Below, piece after piece: positions 82-12,072 of a stretch of DNA of 20,151 bases (positions are counted from its first letter, which is position 1; each line of letters begins with the position of its first letter). A model generated the notes under the pieces. The model saw only the letters and a list, made by a program, of their open reading frames with translations, ran no database searches and was not told where the DNA came from. A program made the translations under genes and the position numbers. Origin of the DNA: a virus. The stretch spans positions 1 through 20,151 of IMG/VR virus record IMGVR_UViG_3300046000_000513, one strand, 5' to 3'.

Positions 82-540
82 TTATGCCTCCTGGTTTACA
101 ACAATGTTCCTAAAATAATTTTGAAAGTCAGCAACATTTACAAAAATTACAAAATCTGTTTCATTTGTATCTTTGCGCGTATGCAAAACTGGTTCTAAGT
201 GTGCAAGCGCTTTTGCTGGAACCATCATAAGACCATCTGAGAACCTAAAACAAATCCTGTTATAGGACTCAGGGTTATCTGTATATGGTGGCGAAATAAG
301 CATTTGCTGTAATTTATTGTATGGAAAAATGGCGGGATACTGACTAGAACTATTCAGCCATTTAATTTCTAAATCACCTATGTAATTCTCACGCCCGTTG
401 TCATACACGCGTTGAATATGAAAATCAGTAAAATAAAACTTTGGCGTGGCATATAACTTCCACGGCAAAATCTGACAAAGATGATTAGCCATGATGTGTT
501 CACGGCGGTTATCGCTATAAACCTGTCTGATTGGCTCCAT
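82..540 (-). CDS. Conserved phage protein of unknown function
   Basis: A 152-residue protein with no signal peptide or membrane segment. I take the ATG at 538-540 as start, 7 bases after an AAGGAG box; a TTG one codon upstream is also possible. The gene overlaps the end of whiB by 26 bases, so the two are probably translated together. The middle carries GDLEIKW (about residues 55-61) followed by an aromatic and proline-rich stretch (YPAIFPYNKLQQML). A D-x-E-x-K in a beta-rich context resembles the core of PD-(D/E)XK nucleases, but one motif is not enough to call that fold. I do not recognise the family. The location between a WhiB regulator and a replication-type gene suggests an early function. 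Confidence 0.75.
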   Translation of the reverse strand: MEPIRQVYSDNRREHIMANHLCQILPWKLYATPKFYFTDFHIQRVYDNGRENYIGDLEIKWLNSSSQYPAIFPYNKLQQMLISPPYTDNPESYNRICFRFSDGLMMVPAKALAHLEPVLHTRKDTNETDFVIFVNVADFQNYFRNIVVNQEA

Positions 541-871
541 CAATGCACTCCTTTATCTCTACATAAGTAATTCCAAATTCCTTCATGCTTTTTAGAGCGC
601 GTAAACGCTGGTTGGGATACTTGTAATAATTTTGCATAGATACGCGTTCAACTCCTGTAAGTCCACCCCATACACCGTAATCCTCATGTTCAAAAGCGTA
701 TGTCAGGCAGTCTTTCCATAACGGACATGCAGTGCAAATAGACCGTAATGAATTTATGTAGTCATACTGCATGATAGAGCGTTCTTCCTCTACTGAATAA
801 AATAAATCAGTAGGAATTGCAAGCGCTCTACATTCAGCCTGGTCCCAATCTATTTCGTCATACTTGGGCAA
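515..871 (-). CDS. whiB: WhiB-family iron-sulfur transcription factor
   Basis: A 118-residue WhiB-like protein. It has the four cluster-binding cysteines (C14, then C46-x2-C49-x5-C55) that hold a [4Fe-4S] cluster, followed by the family's GVWGG turn (residues 66-70). WhiB proteins bind the housekeeping sigma factor of Actinobacteria and redirect transcription; phage copies are thought to act on the host polymerase. The start is a TTG at 869-871, the only candidate after an in-frame stop at 890-892, and it lies 6 bases from an AGGAGA box. The basic tail after GVWGG (YPNQRLRALKSMKEFG) is where family members contact DNA. The start region overlaps the end of the Cas4-like gene by 22 bases. This gene is the best host indicator in the window: the family is confined to Actinobacteria and their phages. 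Confidence 0.95.
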   Translation of the reverse strand: MPKYDEIDWDQAECRALAIPTDLFYSVEEERSIMQYDYINSLRSICTACPLWKDCLTYAFEHEDYGVWGGLTGVERVSMQNYYKYPNQRLRALKSMKEFGITYVEIKECIDGANQTGL

Positions 872-2232: not shown

Positions 2233-2482
2233 CAGATTCCTCCCTTACAACTTGTAGGCCTTCTGTTTCATGGCGGGCTTGTAGTTTGATAAGTCCAGTT
2301 GCATCACTGGTTAAATTAAATGGGTCTGCCGCAAACTGAAAACCTGCGCGGTCCATAGCCTCACCAAGAACTTCAGGAAAAATATCTAGTTCTTTAGCAA
2401 CGGCTCTAATACCTAATGAATTCATGTGAACCGCAACAACAAATCCTGCTGACGGTTGAAACTTGTTTTCTTTTTTACTCAT
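2201..2482 (-). CDS. Small acidic-tailed protein, possible HTH
   Basis: A 93-residue protein whose start overlaps the stop of the upstream gene by one base (TAATG), with an AAGGAAAA box inside that gene. Residues 11-48 (AGFVVAVHMNSLGIRAVAKE, then LDIFPEVLGEAMDRAGFQF) have helix-turn-helix-like spacing: a helix, 'AVAKELDI', a short turn, then a second helix. The C-terminal 15 residues are very acidic (EESDDSDSDTST), a feature of proteins that compete for or mimic nucleic-acid surfaces, for example the tails of single-strand-DNA-binding proteins. No family is recognised. A DNA-associated role is inference from the shape and the operon. Confidence 0.7.
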   Translation of the reverse strand: MSKKENKFQPSAGFVVAVHMNSLGIRAVAKELDIFPEVLGEAMDRAGFQFAADPFNLTSDATGLIKLQARHETEGLQVVREESDDSDSDTSTN

Positions 2483-3081
2483 TAAGCATTTTCCTTTGCA
2501 TCTAGTATGGATTTGCGTGTGTTAATTGCATCTTTCAATGTTCCTTCAGGTGTAGCCGCATCTAACAAATCAACATTTGTTTGCCAGATGGTGCGTAGTT
2601 GTTCAACATCATCACACACTGATACAGCAGTAATTGTTGCAACAGCCATATTTATTTCTTCATTAGTATAAACGCGGGCTACCGTAATCTTTTTTTCTAC
2701 TGGCGCAGGAGCAGAAGTCTGACGGTTGCGAACTTCTTCAGAAGATGCAATGCCTTTCTTTGTATCTACTGCAAGCGCCGCCACCATTGCGCGACCCCAT
2801 GCGGCTGTTTCTGCATTTTGTAATTCTGAGTCACGGGTAAAATTGGTTGGTCCTGGAATTGGTTCCCAGGCATAACCAACACCAGGCAGTTTGTCATCTG
2901 GTGAGCGATAAGCCGCCGCGCTGTAAACCATAAAAGATTTAATTTTGCCATCAGGCATTTCTACCTTTTCAACATAAGGGTCTTTCCATGGTTGTAATGA
3001 ACCCTGCGGAAACTTTTCACGGAATTCAACAATGCGGGTTGCCACATCAATGTAATCCAATGGTCCTTTGTAATTTGCCAT
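2482..3081 (-). CDS. Possible ssDNA-binding/recombination protein of phage early operon
   Basis: A 199-residue protein, first gene of the leftward operon, with ATG at 3079-3081 and GGAGG 8 bases upstream. The N-terminal half reads as a conserved beta-rich domain (YIDVATRIVEFREKFPQGSL; AAAYRSPDDKLPGVGYAWEP). It ends in the motif NAETAAWGRAMVAALAVD (about residues 89-106). A motif of the form E-T-x-x-x-G-R-A-x-A-x-L is shared by many phage proteins in recombination modules, some related to Erf or Rad52-like annealing proteins, and often found near Cas4/RecB-like nucleases as here. The C-terminal 80 residues are a helical domain after a proline-rich linker (SAPAPVEKK). The DNA-binding role is inferred from motif and context; I cannot assign one family. 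Confidence 0.6.
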   Translation of the reverse strand: MANYKGPLDYIDVATRIVEFREKFPQGSLQPWKDPYVEKVEMPDGKIKSFMVYSAAAYRSPDDKLPGVGYAWEPIPGPTNFTRDSELQNAETAAWGRAMVAALAVDTKKGIASSEEVRNRQTSAPAPVEKKITVARVYTNEEINMAVATITAVSVCDDVEQLRTIWQTNVDLLDAATPEGTLKDAINTRKSILDAKENA

Positions 3082-3130
3082 AATCTATTCCTCCATTTGT
3101 AGTGAGCCTGTGGCTCTGGTTAAGGCGTAA

Positions 3131-3157
3131 TGTATAGACCCCTACTGACAAATACAA
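3131..3157 (-). promoter_or_regulatory. Possible leftward promoter of the DNA-metabolism operon
   Basis: The 132-base divergent gap 3082-3213 separates the leftward operon from the rightward proteasome-like gene and must hold at least one promoter in each direction. On the minus strand TATACA (3131-3136) matches a -10 box in five of six positions; TTGTAT (3152-3157) could be the -35, but the 15-base spacer is short. The same -10 bases read TGTATA on the plus strand, so the two directions may share or compete for this site. No convincing rightward promoter or operator repeat was found. No other gene is visible in the gap. Confidence 0.3.
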
Positions 3158-3213
3158 GCACCTGCAAAAAACGGCGTGGCGTGAGAAGATTTACACCTAT
3201 TTAGGGAGGCCCA

Positions 3214-3801
3214 ATGACCACACTTGCCGCGTTCCAGGGCAACGGGTTTGCCATTATTGGCGCTGACTCACGGGCTACAGATGACAATGGAAGCCACATC
3301 ATTCTTTCTAATCCAAAAGTGTCTTGGGACAATGAAGGTGATTACATTTTTGCAATTACTGGCGCTACCCGTGGCGGCAATCTCATTCAACAAGGTTGGG
3401 TTCCACCCGCGCCACCTGAGTTTACTTCTATTCAAAAGTTAGATGAGTTTATGACCCAGGGTTTTATTCCTGAATTGCGTGACCATTTTATTGACTCTGG
3501 TTTTGACTCTAAATGGGAAGGTGAAGCGGCTTGGACCGACTCAGCATTTTTGGTTGCAGTGCAAGGAGTTATTTACCCAATAAATATTGATTACGGTTGG
3601 GATAGAGATATACGCGGAACTTATGTTTTTGGTAGCGGTGGAGATATTTCATTGGGCGTAATGGTTGCGTTGGGAATTGATAAATGCAAAGACAATCCTA
3701 AAGAAGCAAGAAAAATTGTTAAGAGAGCAGTTGAAATTGCTTGCCAATGGAACGCTTTTTGTGCGCCGCCAGTGGTAATTGAAATTCAATATGTGGACTA
3801 A
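3214..3801 (+). CDS. Proteasome beta/HslV-like Ntn-hydrolase
   Basis: A 195-residue protein of the proteasome-type Ntn-hydrolase superfamily, the only plus-strand gene here. It starts MTTLAAFQGNGFAIIGADSR: removal of Met1 would expose Thr2 as the N-terminal nucleophile, with no propeptide. Counted from Thr2, Asp18 falls at proteasome position 17 and Arg20 at 19 (the GADSRAT motif), and Lys35 at 34, one off the catalytic Lys33. Later come a beta strand pair (AFLVAVQGVIYPI) and YVFGSGGDISLGVMVALG (137-154), which matches the GSG...A-x-G-x-L helix of beta subunits and HslV. ATG at 3214 follows an AGGGAGG box. The length matches a mature beta subunit. No ATPase partner is nearby. It may cleave itself or host/phage proteins, or act without the proteasome; substrate and assembly are unknown. 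Fold and nucleophile assignment are strong, function is inference. Confidence 0.85.
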   Translation: MTTLAAFQGNGFAIIGADSRATDDNGSHIILSNPKVSWDNEGDYIFAITGATRGGNLIQQGWVPPAPPEFTSIQKLDEFMTQGFIPELRDHFIDSGFDSKWEGEAAWTDSAFLVAVQGVIYPINIDYGWDRDIRGTYVFGSGGDISLGVMVALGIDKCKDNPKEARKIVKRAVEIACQWNAFCAPPVVIEIQYVD

Positions 3802-4832
3802 TCAAGCCAAACTTTGTAAGCGGCAGTAACGCGGCCTTTTTCAGGGTCAATAAAATGCAAACGCTGTGATGGCGTAGCACTAGCGGCAAGCATTACACCT
3901 GCGTAGCGATTGTCCGACTCAGTAGAACCTGTCTGGTAAACAGAACCAAGCCCGTTAGGTAGCGCCCATTCATTGTGCGTGTGGTAATGCCCAATGTAAC
4001 AATCTCTAAAATTCCAGTCATAAGAACCTGAAAGCCAACGGGACACATGATTAACAATTGCACCAGGAGAAGCAAAACCATTGCGGCCTACTTCATCACC
4101 GTGAATAAGCAATGCGCGGTAATTGCCAATCTCAATGCGTTGAATATCTTCAGGGCAATCTTGCCAGGTAAGGCGTTTTTCTCCTGCTAATAGTTGCTTT
4201 GCTAGTTCATAGCACATGCGGTCAAAATTATCTGAGCGCGGAACATTGTCACGCTTGGAACCAATGCGCCCGTGATTTCCCCATTCAGGAACTACCGTAA
4301 CCTTTTCATAATTAGCCAGCGCAAAACGGACTACATCAACAATCAAACGCGACACATTTACATATTGTTCAAACAAAGTGCTATCAACTTCAAACGCTTG
4401 AGTAGGAAAATTAAACAAACCTTCAACCATGTCACCACCAAAAGCAATAGTTACATCTTTAACAGGGTGGTCTGCTCTTTGAATTTCTGTAATTGCAACA
4501 GCCTTTGTAGCAAATTGTAAAACGCGGTCACGCATAATCTCTGAGTTGTATGAAACGGTGCGTTTAGCACCTTGCCAATCTGTCATGTGCCATAGGGCTA
4601 TTTCACCTTTGGTTTTGCGTTTATCAATTTTGACTTCTGGCACTGGCATAACTTTGCCAAATGTCAGCATGGCATCATAAGCCGCTTGTTTTGTAGCAAA
4701 TACTAAATCTTCATTGCGTTCTTTAGATTGTTTTAATTGTTTTTGAACGCGCATTAACGCATTGCGTAATTCTTTTACATCTTCTGACTCAATGCCATCT
4801 GGCATTTCTTCAAATTGGTCTTTAAGACTCAT
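3798..4832 (-). CDS. Calcineurin-like metallophosphoesterase (SbcD/Mre11-type fold)
   Basis: A 344-residue two-metal phosphoesterase. Motifs in order: MTDWQ (D85; the usual D-x-H has Q87 in place of His), GGD (residue 134), GNHGR (185-189), LIHGDE (242-247) and GHYHTHN (281-287). The N-terminal 60 residues are a charged helix (coiled-coil-like) before the catalytic domain. The fold includes the DNA-end nuclease SbcD/Mre11, and phage copies are usually annotated as such, but the C-terminal capping domain of Mre11 is not evident, so a nuclease role is inference. Its stop codon (3798-3800) overlaps that of the convergent proteasome-like gene. ATG at 4830-4832 follows GGAGA and overlaps the upstream gene by 11 bases. 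The D-x-Q change could alter metal preference. Confidence 0.85.
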   Translation of the reverse strand: MSLKDQFEEMPDGIESEDVKELRNALMRVQKQLKQSKERNEDLVFATKQAAYDAMLTFGKVMPVPEVKIDKRKTKGEIALWHMTDWQGAKRTVSYNSEIMRDRVLQFATKAVAITEIQRADHPVKDVTIAFGGDMVEGLFNFPTQAFEVDSTLFEQYVNVSRLIVDVVRFALANYEKVTVVPEWGNHGRIGSKRDNVPRSDNFDRMCYELAKQLLAGEKRLTWQDCPEDIQRIEIGNYRALLIHGDEVGRNGFASPGAIVNHVSRWLSGSYDWNFRDCYIGHYHTHNEWALPNGLGSVYQTGSTESDNRYAGVMLAASATPSQRLHFIDPEKGRVTAAYKVWLD

Positions 4833-8239: not shown

Positions 8240-9087
<848 letters not shown>

Positions 9088-9088
<1 letters not shown>

Positions 9089-10257: not shown

Positions 10258-11172
10258 TTACCAAACTATTGAGCCTGATGTTAAAAAAGTATAAATCTTG
10301 TTGCCGCCTGAAGTAGTTAGAGTTCCGCCAGTAACGCTAGACGCGCTTGAATAAATATCAGAATAACTAATAACTATTATTCCTGAACCGCCATTACCGC
10401 CAGCAGAAGAACCGTTGCAACCTCTACCGCCACCACCACCGCCGCCTGAGCCTGTGTTTACTGTTCCAGCCGTTCCAGCAGTTAAGTTTGCAACTCCCCT
10501 ACCGCCTACTCCACCCCCGCCTGAACCGCCCAATCCGCCCAAATCACCGCACATAGAACCGCCGCCACCGCCACCTGCGCGGGTAACAGAAGTTCCAGTA
10601 ATTGATGATGCACTTCCAGCGCCACCGTTATATCCATAAGTGTTACAAGCCCGTGAAGTGCTTGCTCCTACAGCGCTAGAACCACCTCCACCACCTGCAC
10701 CGCCGTTACCACCAGTAGCCCTACCACCGCTACCTCCTGCAAAACCTTGACCTGATGTAGCAGTTCCGCCAGCCCTTACTGTGTTGTTGCCAGCCGCGCC
10801 ACCACCACCAGAACCGCCGTTTTGACCAACTCCAGCGTAACCGCCGCCGCCGCCACCAACAGAAGTTGTAGCACCTAAAGCAGAACTGTTATTTCCGTTT
10901 GCTCCTACGCCAGTATCTCTTGCTGTTCCTGCGCCTCCAGCACCAACTGTAATTGTGTAAGTAGTTCCAGAAGTTATTGAGGCTGTAGTAGAAATGTATC
11001 CGCCAGCGCCACCGCCACCGCCGCCTAATCCACCAGATGAAGAACCGCCAGCACCGCCACCACCACCTGCAATTTGCAAAAGTGTAACTGTTGGAGGAAC
11101 AGGATTATAGAAAGCGTTACCCGCTAAAAATTCATCAACAATCAAACCTGTTTTTACGCTAGAGATACTCAT
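10258..11172 (-). CDS. Glycine-rich tail fibre/adhesin protein B
   Basis: A 304-residue paralogue of the proteins at 8240 and 11182. The N-terminus MSISSVKTGLIVDEF plus GNAFYNPVPPTVTLLQIAGG is almost the same anchor as in protein A (the FYNPVPPTV block is identical). Poly-Gly runs occupy residues about 37-265 with interruptions of 8-20 residues that differ from A (for example GGYAGVGQNGGSGGGG and CNTYGYNGGAGS). The C-terminus (GIIVISYSDIYSSASSV, then GGNKIYTFLTSGSIVW) matches that of A in layout. Two cysteines in the loops are rare for this type. ATG at 11170-11172 follows GGGGA. Probably a second receptor-binding variant. Confidence 0.85.
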   Translation of the reverse strand: MSISSVKTGLIVDEFLAGNAFYNPVPPTVTLLQIAGGGGGAGGSSSGGLGGGGGGAGGYISTTASITSGTTYTITVGAGGAGTARDTGVGANGNNSSALGATTSVGGGGGGYAGVGQNGGSGGGGAAGNNTVRAGGTATSGQGFAGGSGGRATGGNGGAGGGGGSSAVGASTSRACNTYGYNGGAGSASSITGTSVTRAGGGGGGSMCGDLGGLGGSGGGGVGGRGVANLTAGTAGTVNTGSGGGGGGGRGCNGSSAGGNGGSGIIVISYSDIYSSASSVTGGTLTTSGGNKIYTFLTSGSIVW

Positions 11173-11181
11173 AGTTGTCCC

Positions 11182-12072
11182 CTAAACCGCATACTTAATA
11201 ATTACAACGCCTGATTGACCGTTACCACCAGTTAAACCTGATGCTCCTGCACTGCCACCGCCACCTGAACCATAAGAAGTTGCATTAGTTCCCCCTGATG
11301 TTGAAGAACCGTTACCTGCACCTGTTCCACCTGAAGATGCTGTGTAACCAGATTGCGCGCCTGCACCACCGCCTGAATTGATAACAGTCATTCCTGATAA
11401 AGAAGTAAAATTTGCACTTGTTAAATTAGCGTCAATTGCAGTTAAAGTGTAACCCTGACCACCTGCTCCTGAAGTGCTAGTAGAAGGAGCATTTGCTCCT
11501 GCGGCTGTTGCGCCACCACCACCACCGCTTGTGTAACCTGGCGCTCCTAATCCACTTCCACCAGCATTTGTATTGCTACCACTTGCGCTACCGCCAGCAC
11601 TAGGCGTTTGTGAACCGCCTCCACCTGAACCTCCAGCAATTCCATTTTTTGTAGTATCAGCACCACCACCACCACCACCAAGAGAAGTAACGCTTGATGC
11701 AAAACTTGAAGTATTGCCTGATGTTCCTCTTAAACCATAACTTGCACCACCAGCACCACCAGCACCAATGGTTACAGAATAACCAGTAGCAGTAATAGCA
11801 ACTGTTCCAAATAAATCTAATTCTCCAGCACCGCCGCCACCACCATAACCAGAACCGCCACCGCCACCGCTACCAGCAGACATAACACTAATTGTTCCTG
11901 GTCCAGCATTAGTTACAGTAAAAGTTCCTGATGAAGTGAACACATGATATTTAGTGCTACCAATTGTTTGTATTTCATTTCCACCAGTTGCGGCAACTAC
12001 AGGAATATATGCAGAATTACCCACTAGCATAGAAATGCTACGGGTTCCGTTTTTGATGGATTTAATAGACAT
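11182..12072 (-). CDS. Glycine-rich tail fibre/adhesin protein C
   Basis: A 296-residue third paralogue. The anchor MSIKSIKNGTRSISMLVGNS is shared with A, but the following part differs: GSTKYHVFTSSGTFTVTN comes before the first glycine run (GSGGGGG), whereas A and B carry the equivalent beta element at the C-terminus. C ends at SGVVIIKYAV without that hairpin. Poly-Gly runs span residues about 68-285 with Ser/Thr-rich interruptions. The start lacks a strong Shine-Dalgarno box. The domain order suggests that adhesin units were swapped or permuted among the three genes. Expected role: fibre tip or adhesin. Confidence 0.85.
   Translation of the reverse strand: MSIKSIKNGTRSISMLVGNSAYIPVVAATGGNEIQTIGSTKYHVFTSSGTFTVTNAGPGTISVMSAGSGGGGGSGYGGGGGAGELDLFGTVAITATGYSVTIGAGGAGGASYGLRGTSGNTSSFASSVTSLGGGGGGADTTKNGIAGGSGGGGSQTPSAGGSASGSNTNAGGSGLGAPGYTSGGGGGATAAGANAPSTSTSGAGGQGYTLTAIDANLTSANFTSLSGMTVINSGGGAGAQSGYTASSGGTGAGNGSSTSGGTNATSYGSGGGGSAGASGLTGGNGQSGVVIIKYAV

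Follow-up and report, generated by a model that had tools for sequence, protein, structure and literature searches.

HslV is a hexameric double ring whose partner is the AAA+ protein HslU. Proteasome homologs of phages have been catalogued since 2021, and none of them has a known function. In that year Fuchs, Alva and Lupas described 22 new proteasome-like families, of which two, PPH and AAH, are common in phages; for none of the families is a function or an AAA+ partner known, and the survey reports no AAH from an actinophage (PMC8665760).

In this study, we examine a viral gene of this type and its relatives. The window, by which we mean the whole stretch of DNA analysed, is a virus record of 20,151 bases and represents a genome fragment. 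Judging by its sequence, this virus of freshwater actinobacteria carries a proteasome-type enzyme with all catalytic residues intact. The original prediction had called the gene a hydrolase of the proteasome/HslV type with intact catalytic residues, and sequence profiles, the predicted fold and an alignment of 33 homologs bear this out. The protein falls within a large clade of actinophage sequences, one that went unreported in the 2021 survey. We consider it on balance probable that it is a self-activating, unfoldase-independent phage threonine peptidase of proteasome-like group I, which would form a small BPH-like homo-oligomer and act in infection.

The hydrolase gene and its catalytic residues

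The features of the locus are collected in Table 1. The hydrolase is the sole convincing plus-strand gene in the window, as had been noticed from the letters alone, and it is flanked by leftward genes. The exonuclease gene is convergent with it and overlaps it by 4 bases. The GGAGG sequence of the window also precedes the hydrolase gene in two further loci, L001 and L002. The promoter must lie in the gap that separates the gene from its divergent neighbor; the plus strand of this gap yielded no sigma-70-like match, and promoter and terminator scans gave nothing useful.

Table 1. Features at and around the hydrolase gene of the window
Feature	Position	Strand	Details
WhiB-family regulator	515..871	-	PF02467, E=8.9e-12
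132-bp gap	3082..3213	+	between gene 2482-3081 (-) and the hydrolase gene (divergent)
Ribosome-binding site GGAGG (gggaggcccaATG)	3205..3209	+	upstream of the hydrolase ATG, read from the sequence
Proteasome-like Ntn hydrolase gene	3214..3801	+	ATG start, 195 aa, Met-Thr-Thr N-terminus
Exonuclease (SbcD/metallophosphatase-like)	3798..4832	-	phrog_284, E=1.5e-39

The predicted nucleophile is Thr2, which becomes Thr1 once the Met is removed, together with Asp18 and Lys35. Counted without the Met, the residues in question are Thr1, Asp17, Ser18, Arg19 and Lys34, with Lys34 in place of the proteasome Lys33 owing to a one-residue indel in the S3-S4 loop. Gly50 occupies the oxyanion-hole position, and Ser141 lies inside a GSGG motif (window numbering). 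In the window protein and in the homologs that were read, the Thr is residue 2 and follows the start Met directly, with no propeptide. The placements of the original prediction thus hold, in that Thr1, Asp17 and Arg19 fall on proteasome positions and the Lys is one off, and its statement that a propeptide is absent was correct.

The alignment comprises 33 viral homologs whose identity to the window protein ranges from 22% to 80%. Thr2, Asp18, Lys35, Gly142 and Pro186 are invariant in all 33, and Gly50 (31/33) and Ser141 (30/33) are nearly so; Ser141 and the invariant Gly142 thereby substantiate the GSG block that had been pointed out. Arg20, also singled out at the outset, does stand at the proteasome position, but it is conserved in only 20 of the 33 sequences. 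Motifs specific to the family, such as RGGN and DYxWDRD, are strongly conserved. Nine of the 33 sequences, those of the subclade to which the window protein belongs, have Asn at the position that aligns with Asp166 of BPH and the proteasome, a substitution that, as read from the alignment, might lower activity, although HslV has a Cys aligned there, which softens the point. Where dS could be computed, dN/dS between the window gene and its relatives is about 0.11-0.22, and the gene is under purifying selection.

Family, predicted fold and partners

Searches of Pfam, NCBIfam and PDB with the single window sequence gave no match, so the initial call, made on motifs alone, was a good one. The window protein does match phrog_1040, annotated "peptidase HslV family" (E=1.3e-16). 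Far from being an orphan, it has about 300 relatives in IMG/VR: a single-sequence scan recovered 21 and a profile scan 294, and further queries brought in more distant ones. Among cellular genomes, window-family patterns found no relative in 84,980 bacterial and archaeal genomes, a scan by short motifs that distant relatives could escape, and a second genome scan with AAH-like motifs led to one WWE3 genome.

Against PDB sequences the family profile matched BPH over the whole BPH length (E=1.9e-11), HslV (5.5e-10) and 20S beta5 (about 4e-8). In hhalign comparisons the match was strongest with an AAH-like set of Streptomyces, Sinorhizobium, Paraburkholderia and phage proteins (E=8.5e-22), followed by BPH (1.1e-6) and HslV (9.6e-6); the AAH label of the Streptomyces and Sinorhizobium sequences derives from taxonomy and similarity rather than from published reference sequences. 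By sequence, then, the window family appears nearest to AAH and next to BPH within the group I proteasome-like proteins. In the tree the actinophage sequences, which include those of Planktophila phage E7, Arthrobacter phage Pitbull and DSL-LC01, group together in a single clade with support of 100/99 (90/82 with more outgroups), sister to a clade of AAH-like phage and bacterial sequences. The actinophage clade is a new group within a known type of phage proteasome homolog, and perhaps a new subfamily.

An AlphaFold2 model built on the 33-sequence alignment has a mean pLDDT of 91.3 and a pTM of 0.87, and its strands and helices follow one another as expected; an earlier run on a shallow alignment of 22 close relatives reached a pLDDT of 58 and was discarded. 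The model has the αββα Ntn fold whose absence had been named beforehand as grounds for refutation. Its top Foldseek match is BPH (5ovs, E=7.7e-11), and VIA-align superposes it on epoxomicin-bound BPH with Z 20.5 at 2.4 Å over 174 residues, as against Z 18.8 for both E. coli HslV and the M. tuberculosis 20S beta subunit. Of the structures with which the original prediction proposed a comparison, proteasome beta, HslV and BPH all match, BPH being the best solved match. In the predicted model residues 20 to 50 contain no helices, a short helix H1 (residues 52-59) leads into a Pro-rich loop, and helix H2 spans the 22 residues 73-94.

The short H1 and Pro-rich loop may mean, if the model is right, that ring assembly differs or fails. 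This H1-H2 region is unlike that of ring-forming relatives, and together with the conserved RGGN and DYxWDRD motifs it invites comparison with connectase, which sets the precedent of a monomeric ligase with the same fold (PMC8665760). The window protein might by this analogy be a processing enzyme or protein ligase of high specificity, possibly monomeric, with a single phage or host target. Connectase, in contrast, is missing the H1 and H2 helices and has a two-helix insertion between S3 and S4 (PMC8665760); the window model has both helices and no such insertion, and we regard this reading as rather unlikely.

No HslU/ClpX-type domain (PF07724) was matched in the window, in records G001-G004 and G007, or in phage E7, and a classical AAA domain (PF00004) was likewise missing from the window and from four relatives 31-40 kb long; the controls were detected in both searches. 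The missing ATPase of the original prediction is thus confirmed for these domain types in the window and its four longer relatives. PF00004 did match in phages E7 and DSL-LC01; the E7 match, in a 261-aa protein, resembles a RecA/DnaB-type ATPase more than an unfoldase. In the window family the residues that follow H2 form an acidic segment with a net charge of -2 to -5, and this segment and the lack of an AAA_2 or AAA match in the window and the four longer relatives both count for a peptidase that works without an unfoldase. A host ClpX, ClpC or Mpa could nevertheless serve the phage hydrolase as unfoldase.

It had been suggested that the phage protein might join, poison or otherwise act on the host proteasome, and the host lends this some weight. 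The WhiB gene points to an actinobacterial host, as expected from the start; Actinobacteria are a phylum in which a 20S proteasome is often present, and the fold resembles that of the M. tuberculosis beta subunit. That the protein is specifically tied to the host's 20S proteasome, by joining, poisoning or replacing its beta subunits, is nonetheless very improbable. The family profile matches AAH, BPH and HslV better than it does 20S beta, the nearest relatives being of AAH type, and the phage protein lacks a propeptide. The wider family, moreover, is found in phages whose hosts are Psychrobacter, Salmonella and E. coli, bacteria not known to have a 20S proteasome. Action on the host 20S is unlikely because related phages infect such hosts, and the family as a whole is therefore independent of the 20S.

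For a self-activating threonine peptidase, we infer catalysis, an oligomeric state, independence from host unfoldases and a protein substrate related to infection; we know of no biochemical activity for phage members of the family. The host methionine aminopeptidase would remove Met1 and expose the Thr as N-terminal nucleophile, which the equivalents of Asp17 and Lys33 would assist. Neither a propeptide nor an alpha subunit nor an AAA+ unfoldase from the phage would be needed. The protein would most likely assemble as a small homo-oligomer like BPH and would cleave unfolded or specific polypeptides during infection, be they host regulators, defense proteins or phage proteins.

Genome positions, head genes and cultured carriers

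Gene neighborhoods were compared in a sample of at least 120 loci that is partly redundant. The hydrolase gene lies directly behind the portal gene and on the same strand in 60 of 120 loci, beside the exonuclease gene as in the window in 12 of 120, and near whiB or a PD-(D/E)XK nuclease gene in 26 of 120. The exonuclease gene also adjoins it in L001, L002, L004-L008, L016 and L018-L020. The description of the gene as alone and on the opposite strand is accurate for the window's phage group but not in general, as the gene is co-directional behind the portal in half of the loci. Well-supported branches of the tree force at least five changes of the portal-adjacent state, which indicates that the gene moves as accessory cargo.

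The place behind the portal is the classical position of a prohead protease, and the 60 loci that show it include the cultured Planktophila phage E7. In the portal-adjacent group the head genes run in the order TerL, portal (phrog_104, E=4.1e-23), hydrolase, internal proteins, scaffold-like protein and major capsid protein, and the head proteins of this group that were tested included no other recognisable head protease. This arrangement suits a head-associated protease that processes the scaffold, portal or capsid protein, the gene having moved and kept its job in the window's group. We hold this to be unlikely. Streptomyces phage Immanuel3 has a portal that is 43% identical and the same head-gene order, yet no hydrolase homolog was found in its whole record, nor in Abafar. 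The gene also stands outside the head operon in the window and in many other loci, and a 39.7-kb genome, the longest among the window's close relatives, encodes its own head-maturation-protease-like protein among its head genes (phrog_3270, E=1.2e-8). Given the homolog missing from Immanuel3 and Abafar and the maturation-protease-like protein of the longest relative, it is improbable that the hydrolase of the window's group is dedicated to the head, though it could be in the portal-adjacent group, which showed no other head protease among the proteins tested. Quite unlikely, too, is an autonomous virus-encoded proteasome-like particle that would serve as an infection protease in freshwater actinophages and, in the one lineage with the gene behind the portal, in head assembly, a job for which this fold is not known to be used.

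Two other sets of probable structural genes were noted along the way. A protein of 1700-1850 aa follows the hydrolase in portal-adjacent phages (L041:7273-12516, L012:3153-8714, L139:8727-14021); it had no match in Pfam and PHROG for L041 or in PHROGs for L012, and from where it lies it may be an internal virion protein. In the window, three neighboring glycine-rich proteins of the tail region at 8240-9088, 10258-11172 and 11182-12072 (-) resemble one another at the N-terminus (SIKxG/NK...SMLVGN..Y.PV or similar) and are probably duplicated tail proteins.

A gene that is accessory, hops between positions and is under purifying selection across many different actinophages might also encode a counter-defense protease that destroys a host defense or cell-death protein, and in many loci it adjoins early genes, among them whiB and nuclease genes. 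We rate this narrower role as decidedly improbable and favor the more general unfoldase-independent infection peptidase.

The viral role can be tested in cultured carriers. Records OX376640 and OX376641 are apparently Planktophila phages E7 and F5, which were isolated on "Ca. Planktophila" LanE-43; the main text of the paper that describes them names no protease or proteasome (PMC10202952). They are the first cultured Nanopelagicales phages. The E7 homolog (L139:7500-8036) lies directly behind the E7 portal gene, and F5 has a homolog as well. Arthrobacter phage Pitbull and Microbacterium phage Pumpernickel are further cultured carriers. More distant relatives of the window protein occur in T5-like phages: in Salmonella phage S114 (L134:3001-3579) and related phages the homolog sits beside genes for nrdB, dihydrofolate reductase and thymidylate synthase, and some homolog-bearing T5-like phages grow on E. 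coli K-12 and are tractable for knockout. Outside phages, an AAH-like homolog annotated as hypothetical is present on plasmids of Sinorhizobium fredii and S. americanum (L131:4001-4546, L132:4001-4546), inside the nitrogen-fixation cluster between nifQ and iron-sulfur assembly/nifS genes. Knockout combined with N-terminomics in the cultured phages, from Planktophila E7/F5, Pitbull and Pumpernickel to the distant T5-like phages of E. coli K-12, offers a route to the function of viral proteasome relatives, and would also tell whether ring proteases serve viruses without unfoldases.

Comparison with known proteasome-like systems

With AAH the window protein shares the fold family, the catalytic residues, the lack of a propeptide and of a linked AAA+ protein, and an occurrence in both phages and bacteria. 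The AAH-like proteins are, in contrast, only about 22-32% identical to it, and it lies in the separate actinophage clade. BPH (5ovs/5ovt/5ovu) is the best solved match in both fold and sequence profile, and likewise has no known unfoldase. Its pore loop after H2 is acidic (PMC8665760), and an acidic loop follows H2 in both proteins. BPH differs in being only 18-20% identical, in the much shorter H1 of the window protein, and in being a bacterial protein that forms a double heptamer.

HslV has in common with the window protein the N-terminal Thr, Asp17, Lys33, the GSGG motif and a structural match of Z 18.8, whereas the window gene is without an hslU gene and outside any hslVU operon, and the profile match is weaker (9.6e-6). 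The phrog_1040 "peptidase HslV family" and the T5-like proteins so annotated are phage-borne like the window protein; the phrog_1040-type members of T5-like phages lie among nucleotide-metabolism genes and branch outside the actinophage clade. The 20S beta subunit (PrcB) has a cleavable propeptide and an alpha subunit as partner; the window protein has no propeptide, and its beta-like gene was the sole proteasome-type gene recognised. PPH, at about 140 residues and with H2 missing, contrasts with the 195 residues and intact H2 of the window protein, which stands closest to AAH in sequence and, among solved structures, to BPH.
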